This document shows positions 1-26,893 of a stretch of DNA of 64,000 bases, in pieces. Origin of the DNA: Oceanicola sp. (GTDB lineage: Bacteria; Pseudomonadota; Alphaproteobacteria; Rhodobacterales; Rhodobacteraceae); the NCBI GenBank assembly GCA_022447275.1, contig JAKVBK010000009.1:16150-80149 (forward strand), given 5' to 3'. The first letter of the stretch is position 1. Each line of letters opens with the position of its first letter. The translations under genes and the position numbers were made by a program. Under the pieces are notes generated by a model that saw nothing but the letters and a program-made list of their open reading frames with translations, was not told the origin of the DNA and did no database searches.

Positions 1-3000
1 CCGGCCAAGTCGATGAATACAACGCCGAGGGCAACAATGTGGCCGTCCATGCCTTGCGCGTTGAACCAGCCCCAAAACCCGATGTGGTCGCACAGATTAC
101 GGCTCCGGCGCGCATGGTGGCTGGTGAGTATACAGAAATCACTGTGACCCTGGTCAATCAGGGCGGGCCAATGCCTCCTGAACAAAGCAGTTGGGTCACT
201 CGGTTGCGACTGTCGCGCGATGATCTGATTACCGCGAACGACCCAATTGTTGGCCAAGTCTACGGGCTGTCGAACATGGATACGGGCGACAGTTCGGAAC
301 ATACTGTGCGCTTGCGTGTACCCCCGGGGCTTGAGCCTGGACCATGGCGCCTGATCGCCCAAGTGGATCGGCCCGATATCGGGGCGCCTGATGGGTTCGT
401 GCTGGAAGGGCCAGCAGGCGAGGCCAACAATATTACCCGTGTGGCCGTGCAGATTGACGCGCCGCCTCCTGCGAACTTGGTGCCTGTCGGTGTCACATTG
501 CCAGCGGGACTTATTGCCGGTGATGAAATTGATATCGCGTGGGAAATTTTCAATGCAGGGGATAATGCAACGGGCCCGGCCTGGTCTGATGCCATTTATC
601 TCAGCCGTGACGGCGCCTATGACGCGGATGATATACTTCTGGTGCGCGCTGAAAACGAAGGGGCCTTGGGCGCGGGCCAAAATCTGCAGCGCAGCACCAA
701 GGTCCGTGTGCCAATGCTGGCGGAGGGCGAATGGCGTGTGATCCTGCGCACTGATTTGCTGGGTGAGATCGACGAAGGCGCCGGTGAGGCTGGCAACACC
801 GTCGTCACCACGCGGGTTGTCACGGTAACCGTACCACGTATTGGACTGAACGAGCCAATTGCGTTTGATCTCGCGCCAGGGGTGGAGCGGCTGATCAAGG
901 TGGAAGTGCCGTTTGGCCAGACTTTGCAGGCCATGGTGGCGGGGCTTGACGGCCCTCTTGGAGGGCCTGTGGCAGATTTAATGGTGGGCTATCAGGGCCC
1001 GCCGGACCGATCTGACCCGCTGGCAGCAGATCTGTCGCGCGGTGCCGAACGCGCTACGGCTGTGGTAGCCGGTACGAGCCCGGGCGATCATTATATCTTG
1101 GTGCGTGGGGTTGCTGGTGGCGCCAGCACAGTGCAACTCGAGGCGCGACTGCTGCCGCTCTCGATCGACACTGTCACAGTAGACCGCCTTGGCGCCGGGG
1201 CATGGGTCACGACAGAAATCAATGGGGCGCAGTTCGCTCAAGGCGCGACGGTGCGCCTCTCCCGTCCGGGCTTTGAGGCCTATGAACCGCAGGCTTGGTC
1301 TGTCGTCGACAGCTCTCGCATAATCGCCAGCTTCGATCTGACCGGTGCAACCCGTGGGCTTTATGATGTATCGGTGACCAACCCAGATGGGACGATTGCC
1401 GTCCTGCCCTATCGCGTAATGGTCGACCCCCCGAGAGCGGCGGAAGTTGAGGTGGCTCTGGATGCAGAGCGGGTGATGCCGTTCTGGGACAGTGTGCATC
1501 CGATCGGAGTTGCCCTGCGCAACGCGTCAAACCTGGATGCGGAATATGTGTTCTTCCGCACGTTCATCCCTGAAATGGGGCAGAACGTTCTCGTGCTTGA
1601 TGATGTTCGGAACAGCTTCGCCCGTTACGGGGATGCAATCATGGCGCAGGGCGCAGCGCTGTCCGGTGATGGCCCGTTTGAGGTGCTGAACCCGAGCAGC
1701 GAAATCCGCGGCCGCCATGTGTCGAGTGGCTATGCCTTCGGGCTGGCGCCAGGGCAGCAGGCACGTGCGGATATGGCCTTGCATGTTTATCCGGGCGTAG
1801 AGGACCCAACCTTTGAAGAGGTTCTGGCCATGCCGTTTGACACGGTTGTGGCTGTTGCGGCCACACCTATGACGCGTGCTGAGTTCGAAGCCCAGCAGCG
1901 GGCCTTGGCTGAGGCCCTGCGGCAGGCCCTTCTGGCAGACCCAGCCGCATCACCAGAGCTTTTTGCGGTCGCCGCCGATGGCGAGCTTTGGAGTGATCTC
2001 TACATAGGCGCATTGGAAGATGCCGGTGTGTTGCGGCTGCAGGATGGGGTGCCGCCGGTGCGCGAACAGCCCCTCGTTGCAAGCATGCTCTCGACCTTGG
2101 CCCAAGGCGCATTGGCTGGCCCACTGGGTGGACAGGCCACGGGTGCCGGCGGTGCGCGTGGGCTGTTTGAGGCGCTAACCGCCCTGTACGCAGGCGATGC
2201 GGGGGTGCAGGCAGCGCTGTTGGGTCAGGGGCCCATCCAGCTTGATGTCCACGACGGCACCCCCTTCGTAGCTGTCCAAGATGCCGAGGCCTTCGACATG
2301 GGGCTCGAAGGCGCAACAGCTTCGCGACAGACGCGCTTGTTTATGGTGCCCTCTGGCGATCTGCAGCCTCAGGATATCTCAGTGGGCGCGGAGCCCGAGG
2401 AAATTATCAGCGCGCTGGGCCCGGATGCCATTGGCGGCCAAGGGCAGATGGCACTGGACCTGCGCCAATACCTGATTGATCAGGGCCGGTCCACGGGTGG
2501 GGCTACGCTGGTGGGGCCCGACACTTCTGACACTGACGGCTGGCTCCCCCATGATACCGATCTGCCTTTCACCTTGGGGGCTGTCGCTGACGAAAGTGCC
2601 GGCGCGGTCCGCTCCTTGCGGGCAAGCGTCCCGCTGGATCCGGACCTTGATCCCGAAAGCTTTACGCTGGCGGACATGCGGCTGGGTTCGATTGGAATCG
2701 ACGTGCCTCAGGGCAAGCGCCTGTTTCAAACCGAGATTGACCTGCGCACCTCACGTGGCTTCATCTTGCGGGTGTCTGCAGGGATAGACCTGCTGTCCTC
2801 CACCCCCACAGCGACTTGGCTGATTGAGGCGATCGACCCACTGAGCGGTGTGACGCTGCCGGCGGGCGAACAGGGCTTGTTGCTTCCAGGGCAGACGGCT
2901 GAATTGGGCTGGTTCGCCCGTTCTGCGACGGGGTTGGTGTCAGGCAATGGCGTGAGCGCCGAAGCCGTGGTGTTGATGGATGACCGCGCCCCAGAAAGAG

Positions 3001-6000
3001 CCGCAAATGCACCCGCGCGGCTGGATTTGCGTGCCCCGACAACGCGTTTGCAGCAGCAGGATCTGGGCGGAGGCCGGATTGCACTTGATTGGGCCGCCGC
3101 AGACGATGTCGGGGTGCAACATGTGACCCTCTATGCTCAGGAGCCGGACGGGCCATGGCGCATTCTTGTGCGCCGGGCCGAGGGAGCTGCAAGCGGCTAT
3201 GTTGCTGAAAACGTTGTTCCGGGAACGCGCTTCTTGGCACTTGCCACTGATATTGCAGGCAATATTGAACGCCCTGCTCTGGCCGAGGCACTGCCTGCGG
3301 ACGGGCCGCGCGTTGATCTGGGCGCCCCGCCCGAGACGGCCCGCACGCCGGCCGATCCCCCCTTGGCGCAGCCTGGGCCTGCGCCTACGAACCCGCTCTT
3401 CCTGGCAGCACAGATCGACCAGCTTACGCCATATGTGGCGGATGTTGCGCCGGCCAGCTTCTCCGCATTGAACACCCCCTTCGCTGGCGAGGCCTTCGCA
3501 GCATCCATTCCCACCTCTGAGGGCAGTATCGGCGCGCTCGATGTGTTGGAGCTATCTGATGGCCGTGTCTGGGTCACGGGCGGGGTGGCCCGCGCCAGTA
3601 TCTGGGAGTTGGATCTGGAGAATGACGGAGCGCCCGTCGGCGAACCGATCCAGACCGCGGATTTGCCGCTCTATGATCTGGCCGAGGGGCTGGACGGCCG
3701 TGTCTGGGCCGCCACGGGCGGCGGCCCGCTGCTTGAACTTGATCGGTTGACTGGTGAGGTCATTGCGCGCCACGGCGACAGCGTTGGCACGGCTGTCGCT
3801 GTGTCACCTCTGGATGGAACTCTTGTCGTCGCCGGTGTCGCCGGTGCAGCCGTATTCGACCCGGTAACCGAGGCGTTTACGCCGCTGGGGCGCGATCTGG
3901 ATTTGCGTTTGGGCGCGCTGGCGTTTGACGACAGCGGCACGCTTTGGGGTGTTTCTTGGCCGGGTCGTGATCGCGTGGTGCGGATGACTGAGACGGGTCG
4001 TGTCGAAACGGTACATATCTCCCCCCATCCGATTGACAGCTTGGCATTCGGTCAAACCGGCACCGCGCTGCAAAACCTGCTGTTCGTCACCTCAGTCGCA
4101 GCAGAGGATACCCCCTCGGGTACGAGCGCTGGCACGGGCGGTGTGCTGACATTGATTGACCCCAGTTCCCTGCAGGCGGTCGAAATCGCCGATGGAGGTT
4201 TGCGAGGCGAAGGCGTGACGACAACCTCAGATGGGCGCGTGCTGGTCGCCCAGGGCAGTGTTGTGGACGCCATCCTTCCGGTTTTTGCACCCGAAGTTGA
4301 GGCTAGTAATCCGGCGCCTGGCGATCTGCGCGTGGCGCCGCTGCCGTTGCTTGAGATCACCTTTGATCAACGGATGCTCGATGCAGAACCCGGCGTTCCA
4401 GGCTCTGTCCGAGACCCGGCCAACTATGCGTTGCGCGGCTCGGATGGCACGATTGAGACACCTGAATTTGTGGCTTACTCTGAAAGCACCCGTACCGCGC
4501 ATTTGGGCTTTGGCGCGTTGCCCGGTGACACATGGACCATGGTGGTGGACGGCGCCGCCAATATCTATGGCGTGCCACTCAACGATCCCTATGAGGTGCC
4601 CTTTACGCTGATTACAAACCTGAGCGATGTGATCGAATTGGATCTCTCGGCCACGCGGTTTGATCGCAGCACCGGCGATGTCAGCTTTGACGTGGCGCTG
4701 ACGAACACATTGGATAGGCCAGTTCGGCTGCCGCTGCTGTTGACACTTGATACGGATGGCGGTCTGGGCGTGCCTCCAGAGGATGCACAGGCGATTGGTG
4801 AAGGTGCCTGGACCCTGGATCTCTCGGCGCTGCTGCCGGATGACGGTGTATTGCAGCCGGGTGAAACGACGACCGGTCGAACGGTGCAGCTGGATGCTTC
4901 TGGTCGTTCGCGCCCAGACGTCCTGTTTGGCAGCGCTGGCAATACAGGGCCCAATGCTGCGCCTGAGTTTGGTGATCTTCCAAACCTGCCGGAGCTTGAG
5001 ATTGGGACCCCCTGGACCTTTGACCTCACGGCGACGGACCCTGACGGGGATCCGGTGCTGTTCGGGTTGCTGGACGGGCCACAGGGTATGGCGCTGGATG
5101 CGGTGACCGGGACGCTTTCCTGGACGCCAAATGCAGACGTTCTCGAGCGCTCTACCGTCACCGTGCAGGCTTTTGACACTTTGGGCGCTGCGCGGATCGT
5201 GCGGTTTGATTTGGATGTGATTGGCGGCAATAGCGCGCCACGCTTTGTCAATATGCCCTCAGAGCTTGTGGGGGAAGCAGGCCAGACCTTGCAATTGCGG
5301 GTGAATGTCTCTGACCCCGATGGCGATCCGCTGGCCGTCTTTGCCGATGGTTTGCCGCCGGGCGCTCGGTTCGATCCGATAACCCGCACCCTGACATGGA
5401 TGCCAGAAACTGGTCAGGAGGGTCTGTGGCCTGATTTGCGCTTGATCGCCGATGATGGCACCTCGCAATCGGTGGCATTCGTGCCAATCCTTATAGATGC
5501 AGGCGCCGATCCGCTGGTGTTGCGCGGACCATCCGAGGCGAGCGTCGCCGAAGGGGGGCGCATTGTGATCCGCTTTGAAGGAGAAGGCGGTGGCGCAGGG
5601 CGCGCGCTGCGCTTTGAGGCGGACCGTTCAAGCCTGCCGCCAGGCGCGGTTCTGAACCCTGAAACCGGTGCTTTGTCTTGGACACCAGGCTACGATCAGG
5701 CCGGGGAATGGGACGCAACAATCGCGTTGACTGACGGCGAAGCCCGCATCGAACGGTCGGTGCAGATTACTGTGGCACCAGCCAATGCTGCGCCTGTGTT
5801 CTTTGGCATGGATGCTTGGCAGGTTTACGAGGGCCGCGAGTTAACGCTTTCGCTTTTCCCCTACGATCCCGACTCCCCCTATGCGCGCCCACCTGTCCGT
5901 TTGCCCGATGGCTCACTGGACTTCGCAGACGTTCCATTGAGCACTACCACACGGGTTGTCTCCGGGTTGCCGGCAGGGGCCAGCTTTGATCCGGACACGA

Positions 6001-9000
6001 CGGAGTTCACTTGGACGCCAGGCCCAGATGATGCGGGTGTCTATGAGATCGTGCTCGAAACTACCGATGACGGCGGCGGTGTACCCGATGGCGTGCCGAT
6101 CACCGTGCGCGATACGTTGAGCCTGCGGGTGCTACCTGCCAACATCCTGCCTGAGATTGATTTTATCGACCCTGTAACCGTGGCCTCTGGGGAAACGCGC
6201 GTGCTGACATTGCGCGCAACGGATGGCGATGGTGATATCCCACGCTTGCAACTGGAAACGGATGCACCGCAGACCGCGCTGCCAGGCTTTGTGCAGTTTA
6301 TCGACAATGGCGATGGCTCGGGCACGGTCACGATTGCGCCCGGGGCCGGGGATCGCGGTCTTTACAGTCTGCGTGTTACGGCCACTGATGGCGATGGCGC
6401 TGACACCACATTTGGCTTCACGCTTGAGGCCACCTCATCGAATGAGGCGCCGGTATTGGGCCCGCTGTATGATGCGGTTGCCGTTGCCGGGGAAGCGCAA
6501 ACTCTGCTTCTGCCGCTCTCTGATCTGGATGGCGAAACGCTGGATGTGCAAGTGTCAGGCTTGCCAGGGCTGATCGACATGATGCCATCGGATACCACAG
6601 GTCTCTGGGCGCTGAGCTTTAACCCTGATCCGGGTGCGCTTGGCACCCATCAAGTGCAGATTTCCGTGACAGATCAAGGGGGCGCAGATGGTGCGCCCGT
6701 CACCGTGTCCGATGCCTTCACCTTGACGGTGCGCACGGCAAACACGGCGCCGCGTCTTGATGCGGTGGGCGATCGAACCGTGCCGCCCGGTGGCCAGTTG
6801 CTTGTGCAACTTGTCGGCCGCGATCTCGATGGCGACTCTCTGCATTACAGCGCACGTGGCCTGCCTGCAGGGGCAACGCTGGACCCCCAGACAGGCGTTC
6901 TGGAATGGACGCCAAGGCCCGGTCAACTTGGGCGTGAGGGCATTGTTCTAAGTGTGACCGACGGTCATGAGACGGCAACCGAAACCATTGCGCTGCGTGT
7001 TGACTTGCCAGAGCGGCCGCCGGTCTTTGATCCTGTTGCGCCGCAACTGGTGCGGGAGGGAGATGAACTGATCATAGCGGTTGGTGCGCGCGACCCTGAA
7101 CAGGGCGATGTGTTCCTCAGCCTTGCGCAGGGCCCGGCTGACATGGTGTTTGATCCGGTGCTCGGTGTTGCGCGTTGGCGCCCCTCCTACGGGGATGCGG
7201 GCAACTACCAGATCAGCATTCTGGCGCTTGATGGAGCAGGGCAAAGCGCCGAGCAAACGATCGAGATTAACGTTGTCAATGTGAACCGCGCCCCAGAACT
7301 GACCTTGGCTGATGCCGGGTTTGCAGTGGGCGTGCCAAAGCAGGTTCAGGCAAACGCTAGCGATGCAGATGGCGATCACCTTACTTACCGCCTGATCAAT
7401 GCCCCTGAGGGTGTAACCGTGGATGATGAAGGTAGACTCAGCTGGACACCGCAGCCCGGACAGTCTGGTGATCACCTGATCGTTCTGGAGGCGACTGATG
7501 GCGTCGACCCAAGACGTGTCGTGGCGCTTTGGTCCGTGCGGGATCTGCCCGTGGCCCCCAGCATTCGTGTCGAGACAACGCCTGATTTCCCGGCAGTGCC
7601 CGGTCAGCCGGTGCTGATCCGTCCGGTCATCGATGCCGCAGCCCCTGTTGTGCGGCTGGCTGTCACCGCCGACGGGCAGGATTTACCGCGTGATCAGGCC
7701 GGCCGCTTCATTCTGGTGCCGGACATGCCGGGCCGGGTGACAATCGAGGTGACGGTCGAGGATGCTGATGGCGCTACGGCCACGCAGACACATACGCTGA
7801 AAGTACGTGACCCCGATGACGTGGACGCGCCGCTTCTCGATCTGCTGGAGCTTCCCAATGGCCCTCTCGATAGCCCCGTGGATATTGCAGGAGCCGTTTC
7901 AGACAGCAATCTGGACACTTGGAGTGTGGCGCTCATCGACCGCAGCGGCGTGCGCCCGGCGCTGACCCTCGCAGAGGGCGACGCGGGGATCACCGGTGTG
8001 CTGGCGCAGCTTGATCCAGCCAAAATGCCGGATGGCTGGTATGTGCTGCGCGTGGTTGCGGCTGATATGGGCGGACGCCGCACTGTGCGTGACACCCTCA
8101 TTGAGATTGCGCAGCCCAACAAGACAGCGCGCTTGCTGCATGACACAACGGATGCATCCTTGTCGTTGGGCGGCGTGGCACTGGATCTTGTCCGCCGATT
8201 TGACAGTTTTGCCGCCGGTGCTGTGCCGCGGGGCCACTTAGCAGAGGGTTGGCATTTTGCCACGCTCGACATGCGTGTCGAGAGCGAGCGCGGCCTGAGC
8301 GATGTGTCTGGTCTGGGCCTTGAAACCGCCCTGCGCAGCGGTGAGCGCGCATTGGTTTCTCTGCCAGATGGGACGAAAGCGGGCTTCACTTTCGCGCCTG
8401 TATCCGTTCAGGAAAATGGCCGCAGCTTTGCCCGCCCTGCCTGGGTTCCCGATGATCCAGATGCAGGCTGGCAGCTTGAGACGGGACAGGCGGAACTGAT
8501 CCGTGTGGGCGGACGGTGGTATACCGTTTCCGCCGCAGCCCCCTACAATCCTGGCGCTTCGGGCGGTGTCGGCGATGATTACCGGGTAACGGGTCCGGAC
8601 GGCCGTGTCTACGCGCTGGATGCCGAACGGGGTCTGACACGGATCACCACCGCCGATGGTGGCCTGGTGCATGTCTCCGATGCCGGATTGATCGGTCGCG
8701 ATGGGAACGCATTGCGCTTTGAACGCGATAGTGCCGGCCGCGTCACACGCATCGTGGGCGAGGGGATCGACATGTCCTATCGCACCGATGACGAAGGGCG
8801 CTTGCAACTCGTGCGCAACCTTCTGACCGGCGCTGCGGAACGCATGGGCCATACAAGCTCAGGCGAGTTGCGGCTGGCTACGAATGATGCAGGGGGCAGC
8901 GCCTGGGCGGGCGATACGGAAATGTCCTTTGGCGCGGACCTTGCAACATTGACAAGCTGGGGGGACGCCTCCGACAGCATTAACTTTGGCCCGGATGGGC

Positions 9001-18000: not shown

Positions 18001-20579
18001 CCGGGGGCGACAGTCTGCCGGCGCAGGTGACGGTCACTGTGGCGCCGCCTGCAGCCTTGCCGGTCATTGTTGATCCCGGCCCTCAGTTTGTCTCGGAGGG
18101 CGCAACGCTGTCGCTTAGCCTCACTGGGATTGATGCCGCAGCAACAGGTGGACTGACATGGGCGCTGCTGTCCGGCCCCGTTGGTGCGGCGCTGGATGCA
18201 ACATCAGGTCAGTTGACCTGGCAGTCCGCAGACGGTGCCAGTTCTGAAAACTTTCTTGTGGAACTAAGGGATGCAGATGGCGGCACACGCCAAGCCAGCT
18301 TTGATGTGACGGTCGCCGATGTGGCCCCTCAGATCACCTTAACCGGTGCCGCCTCTGTTGCTGCTGGCCAGACCTACACCGTGGCGTTTGACGTCGCAGA
18401 TGTTGTGGCAGATGCACCCACTGAGATTGTCGTGACATGGGGCAATGGCACCTCTTCGATCCTGCCGGGAACTGCGCGCGAGGCGAGCACCACCTATGCT
18501 GCGGCGGGAGATTTCAGTGTCGGCATTACAGTCACCAACAAGGATGGCATTTTTGCCGGGCCAGATCTGGCTGTTGAGGTGCGCGATGTCGTTGTTAATC
18601 CGCCCGCGCCTGTCGTCGAAAGTTTCACCGCCACGCGATCTGTGCTCACCGTGGTCACGGATCGTGCAATGATCGAACCAGCGCCGGGTCTCTTTGTGTT
18701 GGAAGAGGCAAATGGCAGGGTGATTTCCACATCTGTTTCTCTTTCCGGCACTGGCCGGACTGTGACAGTCACCCCGGATACAGAGCTCAACCGTGGCGAC
18801 TACGTGTTGCGGATCGCCGACGGGTGGACTGCTCGCCCCGCAGAGGGCGGCGCGGCGCTGGACGGAGATGGGGACACGATAGCAGGCGGTGCGGCGGAAC
18901 TGACCTTCCGTATCCTGGCCGGGGTGTCACCTCCGATTGCCGTGGCCGATACTGCAACGACCGCTTTTGAAAGCGCGGTAACACTGGATGTGCTGGCAAA
19001 TGACATCGCCGGATCAGCAGGTGCTCCGGTGATCGCCTCCTTCGGCCCAGCCCAGAATGGCCAGGTGTCACAGCTTGGAGATGGGCGCTTGGTCTATACG
19101 CCCAATGCGGGGTTCTCTGGCGTAGACAGCTTCACCTACTCGGTGAGCGATGGCGTCAATCTGTCTGAGCCGGTTACAGTGACATTGACTGTCTCTGGCA
19201 GCGTTTTGGTCTCTGATCCAAGCGATGGCGGCGGGGCGAGTAGCGATGGGGGCGGCTCCGTTGGAGGGGCGCCTGTTGCACCAGTAGCGCATTCGGGCCC
19301 CGCAAGGCTTCCGGGATTCCGGGGTATTGCCGTTGTGCCGTCCGGTGAAAGCCGTGCCCAACCGCCCTCGCGCCTGCAGTCGACACTGATCCGATCCTCT
19401 GTGCAAACAACGCAGGCAGATAGTGATGGTGCGTCCGCCTCTGGTGTCTGCCGGGCGGCCAGCGTCGCGATGATCGGGGGGCAGATCGTAACGTTGCCCA
19501 CCCTTGTGGCGCCGGGCGATAGCGTTGCGCTCAGCCTGCCAAACGGTGCGCCAGAAGGAATGCGGATAAACTGGGGAACGGAAGGAAGCGTGCGCGTTCC
19601 AGTGGGCGCGACAACCGTCTCGCGACGCTTTGACAGCGAAGGAATCCGCGCCGTAACGATCACCCATGGTTCTGGCGATACGGCCACGCAAGAGACCCTC
19701 TATGTGTCGGTTGGACGGCCCGACCCAGTACGCATCGTGGAGGCGGTGATGCGCGGTGGTCGGTTGGTGCTCACCTTCTCGCGTGCGGTATCGCCGGACG
19801 TTCTGGAAGATGGCAGGGTCTGGCTGGCTGATCGTGCGGGAAGAACGGTCGATATGGGGGCGGTTCTGTCGCGAGATGGCACAGTTCTGACGATCACGCC
19901 CTTGGGGCTTGACCTTGTGCCCGGCACTTTAACACTGCGTCTGCAAAGTGGTCCGTTGGGTGTGCTGGATATGCTGGGCTGCCAGATCGATGGCGACGGC
20001 GATGGGCGCGCTGGTGGGCACTATATTGCGGAGTTTGACATGGGGCTCGACCAGGCTGCATTGAACTTACCCGATATCGTCTATGAAGGCGCGATCGTGG
20101 CCGGTGGTCCCGCTTTCGTGCGCGGTCAATCGATTGGTATTCCGCTGCTAGGGTCCGGAGCTGCGGCAGAGCTCTCTGTGCGCGGCATGGGCGCTGATCT
20201 CGCACCGGAAGCGGTCACCGGGGATGTTCAAAATGGCCCATCGGGCCCTGTTTTGGGAGATGGCGCCGCCGCAGTGGTGTGGCTGGATTCTGCGCCGCAC
20301 ATCGAAACGCTGACGGTTGCAGGCCGGTCGACGGAAACGATGGAGCGGGAGATTGCAAAATCGCAGTCGGCCTCGTCTGAATTGGCAGCACCGGTTGTTC
20401 TGGCGGGTATACTCGGCCTTGCGCGGCCTGCGCAAACTGCGGGACAGCGCTCTAAGGCGCGCCGTGCGGCTAAGGCGCCAGCGGTGGCGCCGCCTGACGG
20501 GCACGGCATTTCAGGCGCTGCTGCGCTGTTGCGTGTTCCGCTGGGTGCAGAGTCTGAAAGGCCAGACAAGCTGTCATGA
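1..20579 (+). CDS. Giant multidomain surface/secreted protein, 5' partial (at least 6,859 residues)
   Basis: The reading frame is open from base 3, and the residues before the first GTG (position 39) already resemble the end of a CARDB domain, so the real start lies outside the window. Numbering from position 39, approximate parts are: two CARDB-like domains (14-265), a prepeptidase-C-like and an IPT/TIG-like segment (270-465), a propeller-like region (1155-1418), an SbsA-type Ig domain (1420-1530), nine Ig/cadherin-like repeats (1637-2502), an RHS/YD-like region (2690-2950), a dockerin-like Ca2+ segment (3066-3106), Big-2-like domains (3200-3390), a second YVTN-like propeller (3785-4355), an alpha/beta-hydrolase-like segment (4515-4675), a coiled coil (5176-5275), a zincin motif (H5649, E5650, H5653, D5659), and Big-9/PKD-like domains (5920-6385). 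No RTX nonapeptide repeats were found. It overlaps the next gene by 4 bp. Its role is inferred as a giant adhesin or matrix protein exported by the three genes that follow. Confidence 0.9.
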   Translation, partial: GQVDEYNAEGNNVAVHALRVEPAPKPDVVAQITAPARMVAGEYTEITVTLVNQGGPMPPEQSSWVTRLRLSRDDLITANDPIVGQVYGLSNMDTGDSSEHTVRLRVPPGLEPGPWRLIAQVDRPDIGAPDGFVLEGPAGEANNITRVAVQIDAPPPANLVPVGVTLPAGLIAGDEIDIAWEIFNAGDNATGPAWSDAIYLSRDGAYDADDILLVRAENEGALGAGQNLQRSTKVRVPMLAEGEWRVILRTDLLGEIDEGAGEAGNTVVTTRVVTVTVPRIGLNEPIAFDLAPGVERLIKVEVPFGQTLQAMVAGLDGPLGGPVADLMVGYQGPPDRSDPLAADLSRGAERATAVVAGTSPGDHYILVRGVAGGASTVQLEARLLPLSIDTVTVDRLGAGAWVTTEINGAQFAQGATVRLSRPGFEAYEPQAWSVVDSSRIIASFDLTGATRGLYDVSVTNPDGTIAVLPYRVMVDPPRAAEVEVALDAERVMPFWDSVHPIGVALRNASNLDAEYVFFRTFIPEMGQNVLVLDDVRNSFARYGDAIMAQGAALSGDGPFEVLNPSSEIRGRHVSSGYAFGLAPGQQARADMALHVYPGVEDPTFEEVLAMPFDTVVAVAATPMTRAEFEAQQRALAEALRQALLADPAASPELFAVAADGELWSDLYIGALEDAGVLRLQDGVPPVREQPLVASMLSTLAQGALAGPLGGQATGAGGARGLFEALTALYAGDAGVQAALLGQGPIQLDVHDGTPFVAVQDAEAFDMGLEGATASRQTRLFMVPSGDLQPQDISVGAEPEEIISALGPDAIGGQGQMALDLRQYLIDQGRSTGGATLVGPDTSDTDGWLPHDTDLPFTLGAVADESAGAVRSLRASVPLDPDLDPESFTLADMRLGSIGIDVPQGKRLFQTEIDLRTSRGFILRVSAGIDLLSSTPTATWLIEAIDPLSGVTLPAGEQGLLLPGQTAELGWFARSATGLVSGNGVSAEAVVLMDDRAPERAANAPARLDLRAPTTRLQQQDLGGGRIALDWAAADDVGVQHVTLYAQEPDGPWRILVRRAEGAASGYVAENVVPGTRFLALATDIAGNIERPALAEALPADGPRVDLGAPPETARTPADPPLAQPGPAPTNPLFLAAQIDQLTPYVADVAPASFSALNTPFAGEAFAASIPTSEGSIGALDVLELSDGRVWVTGGVARASIWELDLENDGAPVGEPIQTADLPLYDLAEGLDGRVWAATGGGPLLELDRLTGEVIARHGDSVGTAVAVSPLDGTLVVAGVAGAAVFDPVTEAFTPLGRDLDLRLGALAFDDSGTLWGVSWPGRDRVVRMTETGRVETVHISPHPIDSLAFGQTGTALQNLLFVTSVAAEDTPSGTSAGTGGVLTLIDPSSLQAVEIADGGLRGEGVTTTSDGRVLVAQGSVVDAILPVFAPEVEASNPAPGDLRVAPLPLLEITFDQRMLDAEPGVPGSVRDPANYALRGSDGTIETPEFVAYSESTRTAHLGFGALPGDTWTMVVDGAANIYGVPLNDPYEVPFTLITNLSDVIELDLSATRFDRSTGDVSFDVALTNTLDRPVRLPLLLTLDTDGGLGVPPEDAQAIGEGAWTLDLSALLPDDGVLQPGETTTGRTVQLDASGRSRPDVLFGSAGNTGPNAAPEFGDLPNLPELEIGTPWTFDLTATDPDGDPVLFGLLDGPQGMALDAVTGTLSWTPNADVLERSTVTVQAFDTLGAARIVRFDLDVIGGNSAPRFVNMPSELVGEAGQTLQLRVNVSDPDGDPLAVFADGLPPGARFDPITRTLTWMPETGQEGLWPDLRLIADDGTSQSVAFVPILIDAGADPLVLRGPSEASVAEGGRIVIRFEGEGGGAGRALRFEADRSSLPPGAVLNPETGALSWTPGYDQAGEWDATIALTDGEARIERSVQITVAPANAAPVFFGMDAWQVYEGRELTLSLFPYDPDSPYARPPVRLPDGSLDFADVPLSTTTRVVSGLPAGASFDPDTTEFTWTPGPDDAGVYEIVLETTDDGGGVPDGVPITVRDTLSLRVLPANILPEIDFIDPVTVASGETRVLTLRATDGDGDIPRLQLETDAPQTALPGFVQFIDNGDGSGTVTIAPGAGDRGLYSLRVTATDGDGADTTFGFTLEATSSNEAPVLGPLYDAVAVAGEAQTLLLPLSDLDGETLDVQVSGLPGLIDMMPSDTTGLWALSFNPDPGALGTHQVQISVTDQGGADGAPVTVSDAFTLTVRTANTAPRLDAVGDRTVPPGGQLLVQLVGRDLDGDSLHYSARGLPAGATLDPQTGVLEWTPRPGQLGREGIVLSVTDGHETATETIALRVDLPERPPVFDPVAPQLVREGDELIIAVGARDPEQGDVFLSLAQGPADMVFDPVLGVARWRPSYGDAGNYQISILALDGAGQSAEQTIEINVVNVNRAPELTLADAGFAVGVPKQVQANASDADGDHLTYRLINAPEGVTVDDEGRLSWTPQPGQSGDHLIVLEATDGVDPRRVVALWSVRDLPVAPSIRVETTPDFPAVPGQPVLIRPVIDAAAPVVRLAVTADGQDLPRDQAGRFILVPDMPGRVTIEVTVEDADGATATQTHTLKVRDPDDVDAPLLDLLELPNGPLDSPVDIAGAVSDSNLDTWSVALIDRSGVRPALTLAEGDAGITGVLAQLDPAKMPDGWYVLRVVAADMGGRRTVRDTLIEIAQPNKTARLLHDTTDASLSLGGVALDLVRRFDSFAAGAVPRGHLAEGWHFATLDMRVESERGLSDVSGLGLETALRSGERALVSLPDGTKAGFTFAPVSVQENGRSFARPAWVPDDPDAGWQLETGQAELIRVGGRWYTVSAAAPYNPGASGGVGDDYRVTGPDGRVYALDAERGLTRITTADGGLVHVSDAGLIGRDGNALRFERDSAGRVTRIVGEGIDMSYRTDDEGRLQLVRNLLTGAAERMGHTSSGELRLATNDAGGSAWAGDTEMSFGADLATLTSWGDASDSINFGPDGHVVHSLVVRASELASTASGRVHIQVTLAGGATGATLDGVDPIGVSDDGSVLVFAVDRPGLLALEVTGTGAHQVRLQAVGDLDLDGDVDADDTSAFGAGTDVDGDGDVDTADRALFNANFGLQPNRPPQPVGEIPPFLTHVDVPIEIDLASLLADAEGDDARYVVLGAVNGTGWIRGETGVFLPQTGVSGDAELIIQADDGWTLSDPIHIPITISDAPLLALDFVGRAQVMATAGIDVPLQLIADFADAEDVDVPLWWAGVQSSDPDVIQISPDGSLIGLARGHVVISAGRGDIAAATIAGVAKADTLDEALTLAGGIDAYPDAVTVLQASQSRQIVTSLGSLGEHFRGQAAQGTRYVVADARIVSVTEDGLITALQPGETTVTVLHGFGEETITVKVLGAVGGASAEVGAEGAILQSASGTRLSVAPGSLPDGTAVSLVDIAFEDLDAKLEGLGLGGDANWGFLGAVDVQMSVPSTETDTPMQLAVPTNGAAQPGETVAFFQRIEMPTGPDDAMEWHWALFDTGTVGDDGLARTASPPFPGLTDRGQVLAARVGFPSKVVKVDYVSDALIQAALYAGALISDLTGGLVDLSAYMASMAVTVSGAISLNYIVPDGDYRQARLEAFKKTADGTVERLEYELELDPELTFEDIDLVPTGEAPPPSIQPGSVSAAFAGVVDRPVITQSEIVEVFEDATQVKLSGFLFMDDALSYDLYEELDAEDIRNSRIRLNFNGQNFYIHGNEFVDIALRSSGTTGEYVQDIIFDVPQYVLLGATEIFVERPIVPRYTGPEPWDEDAEFVTSQPIRFNNEQQLLYVTSRTFGDPTGLPDRGYLEVIRPAPLGSNAADELIRRVPLPRDYLDVGVEMVASPNGAAIFVATLGAVEVFDTISQRFVDFSAADPANLFVAKELRGIPIPEGPITDMAMSEDGLRLFVSAKASIYEIDLSQGAEDFMTARKLLTLDVEVWDQTGAIDRAGENSAHNIIHAIELSKDGRRLYALTPYGERNMNMLRKSHIKFRESSQFWRSEMHVIDVDPALKGVRGERALWELELDDDGNQIYEPDGAKSKKRTTQTVELYGAKLGPAQDRAGDRFNGAMPMFASNGRWIVKNDARDLSRTNRDGVMTVTRRGAFGNGVAILFTTSDDPDTFSLNMETMKATVAQWRGFPDDMADALGMTRNAYNAWGYNLGETDWIPGKGGRQYPFLQRQIGTSFQRYDLDIQTAGEILMSPDGLYAFVVDTGHRSSPDRSTLAKIENQTTIGTKIGVVLDPLGSEPRFLGSVGVFPNQEIKDIALDPSGQRLVATLWHSDTVLAYDTSALIARATEMITSTGKDVNDPSIEPLDLNDTQGVNKPGIDISRPSAIAFSTASEIFVTPVTEPIVNWGENRDELRLTFGWDPEKVPNSDEGVQLYLSTRAPGLGLFPSDPPLHDAGGDKALKPFANDYNPGRVWSTPQGFAFKIGRAYEIGADRIVQDLGEASQNGTVEVTFSEDFMEIVTAGTTLYWGVQFGAAGIRAASSVEVAARAAGADEIAHVTLLTHGFQPFMSVLDGAWSVGYGQPETMLKLAREISDASGGAAVLLYDKRTGQWVNPENGLTGAAGITLGRGVVLVSDWVTESDITDEGFSEAAADALFASLMALDQETEHRLLDAPLHMIGHNRGASVNSEIAQRLAAHLPEINDVHVTTLDPFDQSQETLELPVEDMLLMIRWTNRLAAVVNVAKSVAAAVTTGGASLAVDAVPTASSLATQGLLEKAITTVFEVAGKLGIKIGVVSWDDFKDPDVKRWDNIAFHDNYFQTAAKGKKDGSDVTNTITDFFANSPVTASEAEKAMQAFLQSPDRWTVARRAQWEWLKLKFDVGLDLPGPFTFSANGRSLKGIADYEIDLSTTATGFDRDDFQIDAVGFRFGLNNPTERVLAWYAGTIDPKLELFLDVPIWRRAGDIAQDIRPYSMATENKFDERGWYGASSLALVLSDNMQSYIPSRYKSNPPGLIREGVGQGWFWSAGGGGDIYQPVKSTLTATPYTEDNSEQGAWKSEGAVPEIFNGNFEHGTRQSLVNMIASMIDVGAYIENFTAQPENATVAKKSSKERLFGKDALKSLFSGQVTSFGRFPFSYELPGWSFHGGEGFSAGLDAFRADIAGLFVMNTNPTGLFVDVFDALFDVYAGKITDAATKYLTAKVLKNNETINNNQGYANYKEKVDAIEGYTPAKASAAIKLRDQQQEKYKLAEQEFRIYELLNPVDPVGLAELARLRQVRDDAKRLLDSYENRVKLNGEVEGLHKQVSWLSSAILNDDTWNHIKAVRPAIFGIGPNNDKEGKLQTLESWLKVETDGVIDISKKKDLTEFIKEALKFTFFGKNPAQQDNAILMGGSEALKQLLEGAFSIFGGGSEMGEFVSSVVDELTEFDTLVHNRFWLPETGTNYLTFDTMAPMTVGGGAAVEVMFLKGETTEGAKVSSDSPNVLYRALVPLPEGFFEKTTHSIEVPESLKGQMVKLVIRNVGMETVANDVDITAPEVEDSTGEIEQFFLNASTSLSPGVFGLSQVYLIDNIALSAVPPSTGQAQEATRVAQNVSATVPLAADQVDAVADAARALWQATGVLTPEQDARLATLDFEVRDLGGTILALFDGEQVLLDDDAAGNGWSAAGVDGWQVHNAALRSVDLLTVIAHEMGHALGLPDLPGSGTEEDLMVGALATGVRRVPDADDLVPSDVAAPATPLTLSDVLGTAPRTRLAATTGSTNAIVGAAATTPPVNTTIENGNFDVDDPAGLGWTLVGDAQVVDGRALISESASVFSGITQAFLHDGSATALELTLSEISLTAEPRRVPDAIEIALRDEATGAPLVAVSGLSGTDALISIQADGALRVASGVSVEGTRLPDGRLDLSQALRVLIPLTNAVVDAGYRVSVDLLGFGGDDAQFAVDDVRLLTGANGNLRPVSEPDTAGTTAGTPVRIDVLANDTDAESDALDIVITMPPAHGTAVIQNGAVLYTPEVGFAGADTFFYVARDAGGDSLPAQVTVTVAPPAALPVIVDPGPQFVSEGATLSLSLTGIDAAATGGLTWALLSGPVGAALDATSGQLTWQSADGASSENFLVELRDADGGTRQASFDVTVADVAPQITLTGAASVAAGQTYTVAFDVADVVADAPTEIVVTWGNGTSSILPGTAREASTTYAAAGDFSVGITVTNKDGIFAGPDLAVEVRDVVVNPPAPVVESFTATRSVLTVVTDRAMIEPAPGLFVLEEANGRVISTSVSLSGTGRTVTVTPDTELNRGDYVLRIADGWTARPAEGGAALDGDGDTIAGGAAELTFRILAGVSPPIAVADTATTAFESAVTLDVLANDIAGSAGAPVIASFGPAQNGQVSQLGDGRLVYTPNAGFSGVDSFTYSVSDGVNLSEPVTVTLTVSGSVLVSDPSDGGGASSDGGGSVGGAPVAPVAHSGPARLPGFRGIAVVPSGESRAQPPSRLQSTLIRSSVQTTQADSDGASASGVCRAASVAMIGGQIVTLPTLVAPGDSVALSLPNGAPEGMRINWGTEGSVRVPVGATTVSRRFDSEGIRAVTITHGSGDTATQETLYVSVGRPDPVRIVEAVMRGGRLVLTFSRAVSPDVLEDGRVWLADRAGRTVDMGAVLSRDGTVLTITPLGLDLVPGTLTLRLQSGPLGVLDMLGCQIDGDGDGRAGGHYIAEFDMGLDQAALNLPDIVYEGAIVAGGPAFVRGQSIGIPLLGSGAAAELSVRGMGADLAPEAVTGDVQNGPSGPVLGDGAAAVVWLDSAPHIETLTVAGRSTETMEREIAKSQSASSELAAPVVLAGILGLARPAQTAGQRSKARRAAKAPAVAPPDGHGISGAAALLRVPLGAESERPDKLS
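4951..7545 (+). repeat. Nine tandem Ig/cadherin-like repeats in the giant protein
   Basis: About nine units of 85-120 residues follow one another. Most begin with an N-x-A-P type motif, carry D-x-D-G-D near residue 30, and contain a G-x-L-x-W-T-P turn around residue 60. This is the usual look of the He_PIG / dystroglycan-type cadherin-like family, where Asp-rich turns often bind Ca2+. The copies are clearly divergent at DNA level, so they are old duplications and not a recent tandem array. Confidence 0.75.
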
Positions 20580-22414: not shown

Positions 22415-22417
22415 ACG

Positions 22418-24571
22418 ATGTCAGTTGCAGAACGCCCCTTCTTGTCTGACCAGTGGTATCGCGTCGCGGATTTGACGCCGAAGCTCGCGCCCCAGGTGCG
22501 CCTGGAGCGGCGCCGGGGCCCGGGAGGGGCACATTATCTGCTTTTCGATGCGCTGACAGGACGATCGCACCGCCTGACCATTGGTGCGGCCCGCCTTGTG
22601 GCCACCTTCGATGGCGACACGCCATTTGGCATGGCCTGGGAAGACTTGATCAATCGCATGGGTGAGACGGCTCCGACACAGTCCGAGGCCGTGCAGGTGC
22701 TCAGTCAGTTGCACGGGCAGGATCTTGTGATCGCCGATATTGCACCGGATGTTTTGGAGCGGGAAGAGCGGCGTGGAAAGCAAGACCGCAAGCTGCTTAA
22801 GCAAAATCTGATGGGTCCATTATCAACGCGGATACCGCTTTTCGACCCCAGCGCCTTACTGGCAGTGACCGAACCCCTTGTGCGCCCGCTTACCGGCTGG
22901 TTTGGTTTCGTGCTCTGGCTGGCATTTGTTATTTATTCTGGCGGGCTGGCCCTTGCCGATCGCACGGCCATTGCGAACGCCTTTACCGATCAGGTCTGGA
23001 CGGCGGGCAGCATCGCCACCATCGCAGGCACCTATGTGGTGATCAAAATTCTGCACGAATTTGGCCATGGCTGGGTGGCCCGACGCCACCGTGTGCATGT
23101 GCCAGAGTTTGGTATCATGCTGCTGGTTTTTATGCCTGTTCCCTATGTGGATGCGACCGAAGCAGCAAAGCTTGAAAGCCGCTGGGCGCGGGCAGGCATT
23201 TCCAGCGCCGGAATCGTGGTTGAAACAGCGCTTGCCGGGCTGGCTTTTCTGCTTTGGCGTGAAGCAGATCCGGGCCCTTGGCGCGCAGTGTTGTTCAACG
23301 TGATGCTGGTTGGTGGCGTCTCAACCGTTCTGGTAAATGGCAACCCACTTCTCAAGTTTGATGGGTATTTTGTTATGACAGACCTGTTTGGCCTGCCCAA
23401 TTTGGCGCAGCGCGCAAACAAGGCATGGGGAGATTGGGCCGACCGGGTGCTATTCGCCGCCCGGGACGTGCCGCGGCGCCCTTACTCTGCCTTTGAAAAG
23501 GCAGCTTACACGTTCTATGCGCCTGCCGCGTTTGTGTATCGAGTGTTCCTGTCATTGACGATTGGGCTCTACGTGGCATCCAGCTTCTTTGTGCTGGGCG
23601 TTATCCTTGCGATCTGGTCCCTTGTTCTGTCCGTGGGCAAGCCGCTGGCAAAGGGGCTCTGGCACATCGCAACGTCCCCCCGGCTGCAACGCACCCGCAC
23701 CCGCGCCTATGCCTTGACCGCGGCAGGCTGTGCGGTGGTTCTCGGTTTCCTGTTCGCGGTTCCACTTCCCAATGCGACCTGGACACAAGGGGTTGTCCGC
23801 GCGCCCCAAGGAGCAGAGGTGATCGCGCTTGCGGAGGGACAGATCGAGACGGTGCCTGGCATAGCAGGTGCGAATGTGGCACCGGGCACGACCTTGGTGC
23901 GCTTGGCAAACCCCCTGTCAGAGATGCGCCTTAAAGCCTTGCGCGCGCGTTTGAAAGAGGCCCGTGTGGGGCTTCGGATCGCGCAGCTTGAGGGACCTGC
24001 TGAAGCGCGTCTGGCCGAAATTGGTGTGGAGGATGCAGCCGCACAATTGCGCCGCGAAGAGGCCCGGGCGGCAGATCGGGTGATGATCGCGGGCATCGAC
24101 GGTGTCTTTCAGCCGATTGCCGCGCCCGGAAACCTGGTCGGGCGTCATGTCAGGCGCTCAGAACGGGTGGGCCATGTAATCCCAGGCACGTCAGACCGGG
24201 TGCGTTTCGTGGCGCTGCAAAGAGACGTGGCTGCGATTGAAGAGGGCGTACTTCGGGTGGAGTTTCAACTGCCGCATGAAGCCATCACCAGACAGGCGAT
24301 GCTTGAGGGCAGGGTTTCGACAGGGGCCTTCGACCTGCCGTCTCCGATTTTGGCGCGCAGCGCGGGCGGACCGGTGCCTGCCCTGCCATCAGAGGGGGGC
24401 ACGCAACGCGCGACAGAGCGTATTTTCACCTATGACGCCATCCTTCCCGAGGGCCTAGACGCGCCGATTGGGGGGCGTGTCTACATCAAGTTGGTGCACC
24501 CTTGGCAGCCGCTTGGGCCGCGGATGGTTGAAGCAATGCGCCGCAATATCGCAGGTCTGATAGAACTATGA
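22418..24571 (+). CDS. PqqD-like / M50 site-2-type metalloprotease / HlyD-like fusion (717 aa)
   Basis: The start is 3 nt after the preceding stop. The first ~110 residues resemble a PqqD-type winged helix, which in other systems binds substrate peptides. The membrane part (about 150-450) has several helices and both M50 signatures: HEFGH at 213-217, and N309-P310 followed by D315-G316, the third metal ligand motif. After the last helix (about 430-450) the protein continues as an HlyD-like biotinyl-lipoyl, coiled-coil and barrel region. This architecture matches proteins named 'putative peptide zinc metalloprotease' (YydH-like). It is expected in the inner membrane, cleaving or holding a substrate during export. 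All metal-binding residues are present, so it should be active. Its stop overlaps the next gene by 4 bp. Confidence 0.85.
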   Translation: MSVAERPFLSDQWYRVADLTPKLAPQVRLERRRGPGGAHYLLFDALTGRSHRLTIGAARLVATFDGDTPFGMAWEDLINRMGETAPTQSEAVQVLSQLHGQDLVIADIAPDVLEREERRGKQDRKLLKQNLMGPLSTRIPLFDPSALLAVTEPLVRPLTGWFGFVLWLAFVIYSGGLALADRTAIANAFTDQVWTAGSIATIAGTYVVIKILHEFGHGWVARRHRVHVPEFGIMLLVFMPVPYVDATEAAKLESRWARAGISSAGIVVETALAGLAFLLWREADPGPWRAVLFNVMLVGGVSTVLVNGNPLLKFDGYFVMTDLFGLPNLAQRANKAWGDWADRVLFAARDVPRRPYSAFEKAAYTFYAPAAFVYRVFLSLTIGLYVASSFFVLGVILAIWSLVLSVGKPLAKGLWHIATSPRLQRTRTRAYALTAAGCAVVLGFLFAVPLPNATWTQGVVRAPQGAEVIALAEGQIETVPGIAGANVAPGTTLVRLANPLSEMRLKALRARLKEARVGLRIAQLEGPAEARLAEIGVEDAAAQLRREEARAADRVMIAGIDGVFQPIAAPGNLVGRHVRRSERVGHVIPGTSDRVRFVALQRDVAAIEEGVLRVEFQLPHEAITRQAMLEGRVSTGAFDLPSPILARSAGGPVPALPSEGGTQRATERIFTYDAILPEGLDAPIGGRVYIKLVHPWQPLGPRMVEAMRRNIAGLIEL

Positions 24572-26583
24572 TCGCGCGGCTCTTCCCTCCACGCCGCCTA
24601 TTGCCGGCCTCTCAGCAGGTATATCGGCCCTATGTGCAGCGTCGGGTACCCCCGATGAACTGGGTCGATAGAACCTGGCGGGCGTTGAAAGGCGGGTTGA
24701 CCGCCATCGGGCCAAGGCGCTTGCGAGGCCGTCAGCGCATCGCTTCCGTGCTGCGAGGGCTAGAGCAAAATCAGGACTGTCCCGCATCAGAACTGGGCGC
24801 ACGCGTGGAAGATCTACGCGCAGAGTTTCGGGAGTATGGCCTTCGGCCAGACCTGCTGGAGCGCGCAGTGGCGCTTGTCGCCGTAGCGGCCTTCCAGGAA
24901 CGCGGCATGCGGCCCAGGCCCGTGCAGGTTTCCGGCGCGCTCTTGCTGCTAGACGGCGCAATGCTCGAGATGGCAACAGGCGAAGGCAAAACCTTCACGG
25001 CAATATTGGCGGCTGGGGCAGCCGCTATTGCTGGCATGCGGCCACAGGTCATTACGGTCAATGATTATCTGACAGAGCGAGACGCTGAAAACGGTCAGCC
25101 GATTTTTGCACGTTTGGGCCTATCGCTTGGGGTCGTCACCTCGAATACAGACAAGGGGGACCGCCCGGCCGCCTATGCTCAGGACATCGTCTATGTGAAC
25201 AATACCGAGGTCGCCTTTGATTATCTCAAGGACATCGTGGCGCTTGGTCCCGCACGTAGTCCTGCGCGGCGACTGCTGCGTGCGGCCATCGGTGCGCCAG
25301 GCCAACCGAAACCGCAACCCACCATCCTGCCGGGCCTCCATTTTGCGATTGTCGACGAAGCGGATGGCATTCTGGTCGACGAGGCATCCACGCCGCTGAT
25401 CATTTCCGCGAGCCAGGACATGCCCCCTGACCCGGCCCCTTATATCGATGCGTTGCGGGTTGCGCGGCAACTCACGGAAGGCGCCGACTGGTTTCAGGAG
25501 GCGCGCGCGCGCCGCATAAGGCTGACGGATGCCGGACGCGCCCGTATTGCCTCGCTGGCCTATCCGCTGGGTGGGCTGTGGCATGTGGCCGGTGCGCGGG
25601 AAGAACGGGTGCGCCAGGCGCTACAGGCGCTGCATCTCTACGTGCGGGACCGCGACTATATAATCGGAATGGATCCAGACACGTTGGAGCCTGCAATTGT
25701 CATCGTGGATGAGAGCACGGGCCGTCCGATGCCGGACCGTTCATGGGAAGGTGGCTTGCATCAATGCATCGAAGTCAAAGAAGGGCTGGTGCCAACCGCA
25801 TTGCGCCAAACAATTGCGCGGGTCACCTATCAGCGCTTTTTTCGGCAATATTTGCGTATGTCTGGCATGACGGGAACAGGCCTTGAGATCTCTGGTGAGA
25901 TGCGGAGCTTTTTCGATCTGACAACCTATGCCGTGCCGCCGCATGTCGCAAGCCAGCGGAGATTTCTTGGCTCCCAGCTTCTGCCGAATGCGCCCGCCAA
26001 GATCGCGGCCATCGTGGCGCGTTGCGCCCAGATGCATGCCCAAGGGCGGCCGGTCTTGGTGGGTACGCGCACCGTCAGCGCCTCAGAGATGGTTTCCAAT
26101 GCTCTCGAGAGCGCAGGGCTCCCCCATGTCGTGCTGAACGCCCGCCAGGATGCCGACGAGGCCGATCTGATTGCGCGCGCTGGTGCGCTTGGGGCCATTA
26201 CCGTAGCAACCAATATGGCAGGGCGGGGGACGGATATCAGCCTCAGCTCTGCTGCACGCGCTGCCGGAGGGCTGCATGTCATTCTCACAGAGCATCACGA
26301 AAGCCGCCGCGTCGACCGGCAGCTTTACGGGCGGGCAGGGCGCCAGGGGGATCCCGGCTCCTGCGAGGATATAGTCGCGCGCGATGATCCACTCTACAGC
26401 CGATTTGCGCCGCGCGTGTCACGCCTCGTCCGCCCTGTACCAGCATGGTTGGCCATTCGCCTGCTGCGCAGGCGCATGCAGAGGCTTGCGGAAGGCCAAT
26501 CCGCATACGCGCGCAGGCAACAGTTTAAAACTGAGAAGGATTTGGCAAAGCAATCAGCGATTGCGGGTGTTGAGCACGGCTAG
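24568..26583 (+). CDS. SecA-like preprotein translocase ATPase, short form (671 aa)
   Basis: All SecA motor signatures are visible: Walker A T-G-E-G-K-T with K141 and T142, V-N-D-Y-L-x-x-R-D, the I-V-D-E-A-D Walker B region followed by D-E-A-S-T-P-L-I-I-S, M-T-G-T, A-T-N-M-A-G-R-G-T-D and G-R-x-G-R-Q-G-D-P-G. The preprotein cross-linking region is also recognisable (R-D-R-D-Y-I, E-G-L-H-Q). It stops soon after motor domain 2, so the helical scaffold/wing domains and the C-terminal zinc finger of housekeeping SecA (about 900 residues) are largely missing. The start codon overlaps the M50 gene stop (ATGA). The context suggests a dedicated accessory SecA driving the giant protein, possibly through SecYEG, and not the cell's main SecA. 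Confidence 0.88.
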   Translation: MIARLFPPRRLLPASQQVYRPYVQRRVPPMNWVDRTWRALKGGLTAIGPRRLRGRQRIASVLRGLEQNQDCPASELGARVEDLRAEFREYGLRPDLLERAVALVAVAAFQERGMRPRPVQVSGALLLLDGAMLEMATGEGKTFTAILAAGAAAIAGMRPQVITVNDYLTERDAENGQPIFARLGLSLGVVTSNTDKGDRPAAYAQDIVYVNNTEVAFDYLKDIVALGPARSPARRLLRAAIGAPGQPKPQPTILPGLHFAIVDEADGILVDEASTPLIISASQDMPPDPAPYIDALRVARQLTEGADWFQEARARRIRLTDAGRARIASLAYPLGGLWHVAGAREERVRQALQALHLYVRDRDYIIGMDPDTLEPAIVIVDESTGRPMPDRSWEGGLHQCIEVKEGLVPTALRQTIARVTYQRFFRQYLRMSGMTGTGLEISGEMRSFFDLTTYAVPPHVASQRRFLGSQLLPNAPAKIAAIVARCAQMHAQGRPVLVGTRTVSASEMVSNALESAGLPHVVLNARQDADEADLIARAGALGAITVATNMAGRGTDISLSSAARAAGGLHVILTEHHESRRVDRQLYGRAGRQGDPGSCEDIVARDDPLYSRFAPRVSRLVRPVPAWLAIRLLRRRMQRLAEGQSAYARRQQFKTEKDLAKQSAIAGVEHG

Positions 26584-26817: not shown

Positions 26818-26893
26818 TGGTGAGCCGTGCAGGATTCGAACCTGCGACCCACTGATTAAAAGTCAGTTGCTCTACCAACTGAGCTAACGGCCC
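26818..26893 (-). tRNA. tRNA-Lys (anticodon UUU)
   Basis: The minus strand folds as a complete 76-nt cloverleaf including an encoded CCA. The 7-bp acceptor stem closes with one G-U pair, the T-loop reads TTCGAATC, and a 5-bp anticodon stem (ACTGA/TCAGT) holds loop CTTTTAA, giving anticodon TTT for lysine. The 3' end faces the giant-protein operon. Confidence 0.95.

Follow-up and report, generated by a model that had tools for sequence, protein, structure and literature searches.

A candidate export system for giant proteins with an N-terminal LEPR-XLL leader, encoded by a four-gene operon in Oceanicola sp.

We analysed a stretch of 64,000 nucleotides from the 3.36-Mb draft assembly of Oceanicola sp. 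(GCA_022447275.1), positions 16,150 to 80,149 of contig JAKVBK010000009.1 (C89:16150-80149), which is referred to here as the window. It opens with an operon of four genes, all on the forward strand, encoding a giant repeat protein, a protein with GAF and HlyD domains (GAF-HlyD), an M50 protease with an HlyD-like part (RRE-M50-HlyD), and a SecA-like ATPase (Table 1). The successive gene junctions are a 4-bp overlap, a 3-bp gap and a 4-bp overlap. An earlier note made from the sequence of the window had described this arrangement, and the lengths, overlaps and gap it gave agreed with ours. The domains it had proposed were also recovered, GAF and HlyD, M50 and the SecA parts by Pfam, and the RRE/PqqD-like and adaptor domains by structure prediction. 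Its statement that no ABC transporter is present was correct for the operon and incorrect for the window, as a type I secretion pair lies at 46461-49483 on the minus strand, approximately 20 kb from the operon, and consists of a PrtD-type ABC protein (661 bits, cut-off 510) and its HlyD adaptor (374 bits, cut-off 209). No RTX frame accompanied this pair in the window. A promoter and terminator scan gave matches no more frequent than chance.

Table 1. Genes of the operon and domains of the RRE-M50-HlyD protein, numbered from window base 1.
Feature	Position	Strand	Evidence
Giant protein, C-terminal 6,858 residues, 5' end open	3..20579	+	
GAF-HlyD protein, 612 residues	20576..22414	+	Pfam GAF, HlyD_3, HlyD_D23
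RRE-M50-HlyD protein, 717 residues	22418..24571	+	Pfam M50, AlphaFold model, Foldseek
RRE/PqqD-like fold, residues 1-105	22418..22732	+	Model pLDDT 87; Foldseek
M50 membrane core, residues 145-447	22850..23758	+	HEFGH 213-217, NPLLKFDGY 309-317
Periplasmic adaptor (AcrA/MexA-like) domain, residues 449-698	23762..24511	+	Foldseek best E 4.6e-12
SecA-like ATPase, 671 residues	24568..26583	+	SecA_DEAD, SecA_PP_bind, SecA P-loop

The giant gene was found to extend upstream of the window. A 10-base assembly gap (C89:16140-16149) sits directly before window base 1, inside the gene, and a 4,218-residue open frame with LEPR-XLL and CARDB repeats enters the gap from the upstream side. Because CARDB repeats continue across the gap, the two halves were joined as one giant protein, which would have at least 11,076 residues if a single gene spans the gap. 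The C-terminal portion given in the earlier note was therefore sound, and the start it had placed at the window edge was not, as the gene begins at C89:3485, 12.7 kb before the window. The repeats in the window part are of the CARDB, putative-Ig and cadherin-like types, and no RTX nonapeptide was found in the 11,076 residues. Within the window part, residues ~5,640-5,670 include a matrixin-like zinc motif (HEMGHALGL), and a possible alpha/beta-hydrolase segment, with a GHNRGAS stretch, lies upstream of it. Judging from the sequence, enzymatic domains may be present among the repeats.

The N-terminus of the giant protein reads MSTDTTSAAL...VELETLEDRILLSADFAP and matched the LEPR-XLL family (NCBIfam NF012209) at residues 54-70 with 21.7 bits, against a curated cut-off of 17; in a further scan the score was 27.2 bits. 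No signal peptide was identified at this N-terminus, and none of the 12 LEPR leaders that we inspected had a hydrophobic signal peptide. The leaders often have a basic stretch followed by the pattern F-x-LE-x-LEPRxLLSAD.

The RRE-M50-HlyD protein scored 36.7 bits to Pfam M50 (cut-off 27.2), and its whole AlphaFold model had a predicted confidence (pLDDT) of 85. Residues 1-105 form a winged fold of three strands and three helices, for which Foldseek returned TruD, TbiB1 with leader, lasso B1 with leader and other heterocyclases (TM-score to lasso B1 proteins 0.64-0.67, target-normalised). The active-site residues H213, E214 and H217, together with D315, were at least 97% conserved across 77 relatives. 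The nearest relatives, among them Palleronia salina (M50 protein 67% identical), place the source genome in the Roseobacter group of the Alphaproteobacteria. The C-terminal 270 residues matched AcrA, MexA and MacA (Foldseek, E ~1e-11 to 1e-10). A barrel-sandwich with helical hairpin of the HlyD/AcrA type was thus identified in this protein by Foldseek, and in the GAF-HlyD protein by Pfam HlyD_3. The latter has its GAF domain at residues 181-310, a membrane segment predicted from its sequence at ~347-367, and the barrel-sandwich at ~372-590.

Analyses of the SecA-like ATPase showed it to be a truncated form of SecA. NBD1, PPXD and NBD2 are kept, plus only the start of the scaffold helix, and the Walker A, DEAD-type and motif VI residues are conserved in the family (66 sequences). 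The wing domain (HWD), the two-helix finger and the C-terminal linker (CTL) were absent throughout the family. Its alignment had zero occupancy past canonical position ~730-750 of the 980-residue SecA (median last residue 729), the window protein aligned only to residues 47-555 of Bacillus subtilis SecA, and the family ends in a conserved AFSG tail where the scaffold helix begins. The family was monophyletic with respect to canonical SecA (support 0.867), and the window protein did not reach the curated cut-offs for SecA2 (391.7 vs 930, 400.3 vs 1085 and 376.3 vs 725). The two-helix finger is the part of SecA that drives chains into SecY. Its loss argues for a partner other than SecY, most plausibly the M50/adaptor complex, and the SecA-like protein is not expected to move chains through SecY in the manner of SecA. 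In the paralogues at L036:12130-13851, L039:12139-13860 and L075:2103-4088, Walker A is gone along with other ATPase motifs, but the family C-terminus is kept.

A scan with both M50 proteins of the source genome identified at least 484 relatives, and the locus counts given here are from the best 80 loci, which span Alpha-, Beta-, Gamma- and Deltaproteobacteria and Nitrospira. Where the flanking sequence was sufficient, the SecA-like gene was present at 76/76 loci and the GAF-HlyD gene at 79/79. At the four loci without the SecA-like gene and the single locus without GAF-HlyD, which is truncated, the contig stops no more than a few hundred bases from the M50 gene. The proposal in the earlier note that the genes form a single unit was thus borne out for the GAF-HlyD, M50 and SecA-like genes (the trio) wherever the sequence of the 80 loci reaches far enough, and the arrangement is not a chance one. 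No relative was found in IMG/VR or in phage records, and a viral origin was rejected.

Contig C25 of the source genome carries a second full locus. It consists, in order, of a giant gene truncated where the contig stops, the GAF-HlyD, M50 and SecA-like genes, a small adaptor gene and two more genes, and its proteins are 33-42% identical to the window copies. LEPR-XLL frames in this genome number exactly two, as do its trios: that of the window giant and one on C15. The latter runs off its contig and is likely the N-terminus of the C25 giant. The C25 giant has 26 RTX nonapeptides, so that the substrates are mixed for this trait. The two genes that follow the small adaptor (C25:14647-15537 and C25:15534-16265) had no Pfam match.

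Additional neighbours among the 80 loci were a small secreted adaptor (36 loci), SapC (13), DUF3467 (9) and a TolC-type channel (approximately 7). No ABC exporter recurred beside the trio across these loci, and neither did SecY2 or Asp-like genes. The SapC-family gene, S-layer associated by name, occurs for example at L025:12173-13024 and C25:9000-9737 and sometimes separates the M50 and SecA-like genes. The small DUF3467 protein is encoded between the giant and GAF-HlyD (e.g., L044:7630-8049; likewise in L233, L234 and L235) and is perhaps a substrate chaperone.

Closed plasmids provided giant genes free of contig ends. The Methylosinus plasmid pMSC49a has, in order, a LEPR giant of 8,847 residues as a single gene, DUF3467, GAF-HlyD, RRE-M50, SecA-like, adaptor and TolC genes, and pDSM107133_a encodes a LEPR giant of 12,737 residues, also as a single gene. 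The M50 gene was found on 13 plasmids, five of them conjugative. The current annotations of the system genes are unrelated to one another (efflux adaptors, PqqD chaperones, "translocase", "prepilin peptidase"), the last two being given to SecA-like genes in the plasmid gene tables (L233:22132-24114 and L235:17204-19120, respectively); the SecA-like gene of pMSC49a is among those labelled "prepilin peptidase".

To compare the distributions of the LEPR-XLL leader and the trio, genomes were sampled at the phylum level, as sampling at the class level was too sparse (one trio genome in 289). A trio-type M50 was defined by a score of at least 340 bits, the next matches being under 250. Among 329 Pseudomonadota genomes, 31 had both LEPR-XLL and a trio-type M50, nine LEPR-XLL only, five the trio only and 284 neither (odds ratio 196; Fisher p = 3e-30, which is too small because the test ignores shared ancestry). 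When any M50 of the wider family was counted in the same genomes, 39 had both, one LEPR-XLL only, 46 M50 only and 243 neither. A LEPR-XLL frame was present in 36/40 trio genomes. Two LEPR-negative trio genomes with a readable giant start, one among these 40 and one from the phylum sample, carry a sub-threshold motif (LEPRLLFSATLD and LEPLEGRILLAAD). In addition, 56 of 82 M50 genes had a LEPR frame no more than 6 kb away, and 53 of 60 linked pairs were on the same strand. The earlier note had held that its reading would fail if the accessory genes occurred mostly without a giant protein; these counts indicated the opposite, that the trio tracks giant proteins. The 78 LEPR frames of more than 500 residues had a median length of 9,292 and a maximum of 19,427 residues. 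Open frames of 19,427 codons (G380:C115:112865) and 19,202 codons (G311:C1:75030) are very long for bacteria.

A weaker M50 relative was present in eight of the nine LEPR genomes without the trio. Treating M50 matches of 150-250 bits as noise was considered and rejected, as inspection of these matches revealed a second locus type beside LEPR giants, here called type B. Its genes run from the giant through TolC and a small adaptor, each present in some loci, to the HlyD protein and RRE-M50-HlyD, and in the genomes inspected its M50 gene usually adjoins or is near the LEPR giant. No SecA-like gene was found in type B loci, and four such genomes have canonical SecA only. This absence points to the RRE-M50-adaptor core as the constant element. 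Type B leaders read LALEPRxLxDxAA or similar, vs LEPRxLLSAD. LEPR frames in type B genomes are also shorter, the longest having 4,504 residues vs a median of 8,960 in trio genomes, a comparison confounded by contig ends and ancestry.

Based on these findings, we consider it probable that the operon encodes a dedicated export system for giant proteins that have no Sec signal peptide and instead carry a short LEPR-XLL leader at the N-terminus. The leader, with its motif, N-terminal position and linkage to the trio, would serve as the address tag. In the M50 protein, the cytoplasmic RRE domain has the fold by which RRE domains bind the leaders of ribosomally synthesised and post-translationally modified peptides (RiPPs), and by analogy would bind the LEPR leader. 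The SecA-like ATPase, truncated as described, would hold the unfolded chain and feed it to the M50/HlyD membrane complex and not to SecYEG; both this partner and its action as a motor are inferred. The M50 core, whose active site is conserved, would anchor the complex and probably remove the leader. We speculate that the M50 and GAF-HlyD proteins, through their adaptor domains, assemble with the small secreted adaptor and the TolC-type channel as a conduit across the periplasm and outer membrane, based on their folds and, in some loci, on linkage. The TolC-type channel and small adaptor are encoded in the cluster in some relatives and elsewhere presumably come from other loci. The SecA-like motor may be an addition found with the longest substrates, type B serving shorter LEPR giants.

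The earlier note had proposed that SecA drives the giant protein across the membrane, that the M50 protease cleaves it and that an HlyD-like conduit leads to the surface. The operon as a unit, its linkage to giants and the adaptor-type conduit without an ABC partner, which fits the anatomy of the operon, were retained from that interpretation. Crossing through SecYEG driven by SecA was not, as the SecA-like protein stops at the start of the scaffold domain and the sister locus type has LEPR giants without it. The upstream LEPR-XLL leader, the RRE fold, the second locus, and the TolC, small adaptor and DUF3467 partners in relatives go beyond that note.

Several observations, together with the shared ancestry behind the Fisher p-values, weigh against this interpretation. 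Export, leader binding and cleavage are all inferred from sequence and fold. The window locus has neither TolC nor the small adaptor. The joining of the two halves of its giant rests on repeat continuity across the gap, and at the nominal gap length of 10 bases the halves are in different frames. LEPR frames of fewer than 500 residues also exist, mostly on cut contigs. A few SecA-like copies (L036, L039 and L075) have lost ATPase motifs, yet each of these genomes has an intact copy elsewhere. Finally, type B loci manage without the SecA-like protein, which is thus not an essential motor for all LEPR giants.

Other explanations of the operon were weighed against the same data. The SecA-like ATPase could work with housekeeping SecYEG as a variant of accessory Sec, the M50 protease removing the leader after insertion and the HlyD parts only assisting passage through the periplasm. 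In streptococci, dedicated SecA2 proteins serve giant adhesins of the serine-rich-repeat type, which is a precedent for such an arrangement, and the SecA homology, with NBD1, PPXD and NBD2 intact, is consistent with it. We nevertheless regard this explanation as unlikely, since the family has none of HWD, two-helix finger and CTL, scores far under the SecA2 cut-offs and has no recurring SecY2 or Asp-like neighbours in the 80 loci, the leaders have no signal peptide, and type B dispenses with the SecA-like gene altogether.

That the giant instead leaves by an ordinary type I system encoded elsewhere, such as the PrtD/HlyD pair, with the trio acting in its maturation or regulation, appears very improbable. 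The pair is complete and only 20 kb away, and some LEPR giants, including that of C25, do have RTX repeats. However, the absence of RTX nonapeptides from the window giant led us to set the pair aside as its exporter, no ABC exporter recurs next to the trio, and the adaptor domains and the linked TolC of relatives indicate transport by the trio itself. We give hardly any credence to a RiPP-like or regulated-proteolysis system, in which RRE and M50 would process the N-terminus of the giant for signalling or modification and no conduit would exist. The RRE fold, the conserved M50 active site, the GAF domain and a weak similarity to a daptide protease (120.9 bits, cut-off 300) favour it; two or three adaptor-type proteins, TolC in some clusters, and substrates thousands of residues in length speak against it, and no role in RiPP maturation is known for a SecA-type ATPase.

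The proposed LEPR export system shares with type I secretion (LapBCE/LapA, HlyBD-TolC) the HlyD-like adaptors, very large repeat substrates and the lack of a Sec signal peptide; a TolC partner is encoded in the clusters of some relatives and not at the window locus. It differs in having no ABC exporter, in an N-terminal leader vs a C-terminal signal, and in the addition of the RRE-M50 membrane protein and the SecA-like ATPase. As in streptococcal accessory Sec (SecA2/SecY2/Asp), a second SecA-type ATPase is dedicated to a very large surface protein, but SecY2, Asps, glycosyltransferases and the two-helix finger are missing and the setting is Gram-negative, with adaptors. These two systems are the ones it most resembles, and it departs from both in its address tag, receptor fold, membrane component and motor. 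RiPP enzymes with an RRE (PqqD, TbiB1, TruD, LynD) have the same N-terminal domain fold and a short N-terminal substrate leader, whereas here the RRE is fused to an intramembrane protease and adaptor, and a giant protein takes the place of the peptide substrate. Likewise, the HExxH and NPxxxxDG motifs within membrane helices are those of site-2 proteases (M50), which here are fused to RRE and adaptor domains and tied to a giant-protein operon. It is an evenly balanced question for us whether this is its own kind of secretion, with a LEPR leader read by an RRE, a protease-adaptor gate in the inner membrane and a SecA-derived motor working away from SecY, in which single chains of up to ~19,000 residues would cross both membranes and no ABC transporter would take part.

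No description of the gene set or mechanism was found in the open-access literature (subscription papers and preprints were outside the search). In the same literature, LEPR-XLL, the LEPR motif, DUF4347 and DUF3467 had passing mentions only, such as that of LEPR-XLL in an 8,000-residue Vibrio protein (PMC10868602). The NF012209 family, whose motif the window giant shares, names an N-terminal motif only, and we found no partner system or role described for it. The proposed system offers a testable answer to how some of the longest bacterial proteins are exported, and would give LEPR-XLL, a domain hitherto only named, a role as an export tag. If true, a SecA fold has come to serve as a motor that works apart from SecYEG, and protein secretion has its own equivalent of the leader recognition seen in RiPPs. 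A clean comparison of the motor's contribution is possible between the locus type that has the SecA-like gene and the type that lacks it.

Immediately 3' of the operon, ahead of dapF, the window has a tRNA-Lys (TTT) gene on the minus strand (26818-26893), which is a possible integration site.

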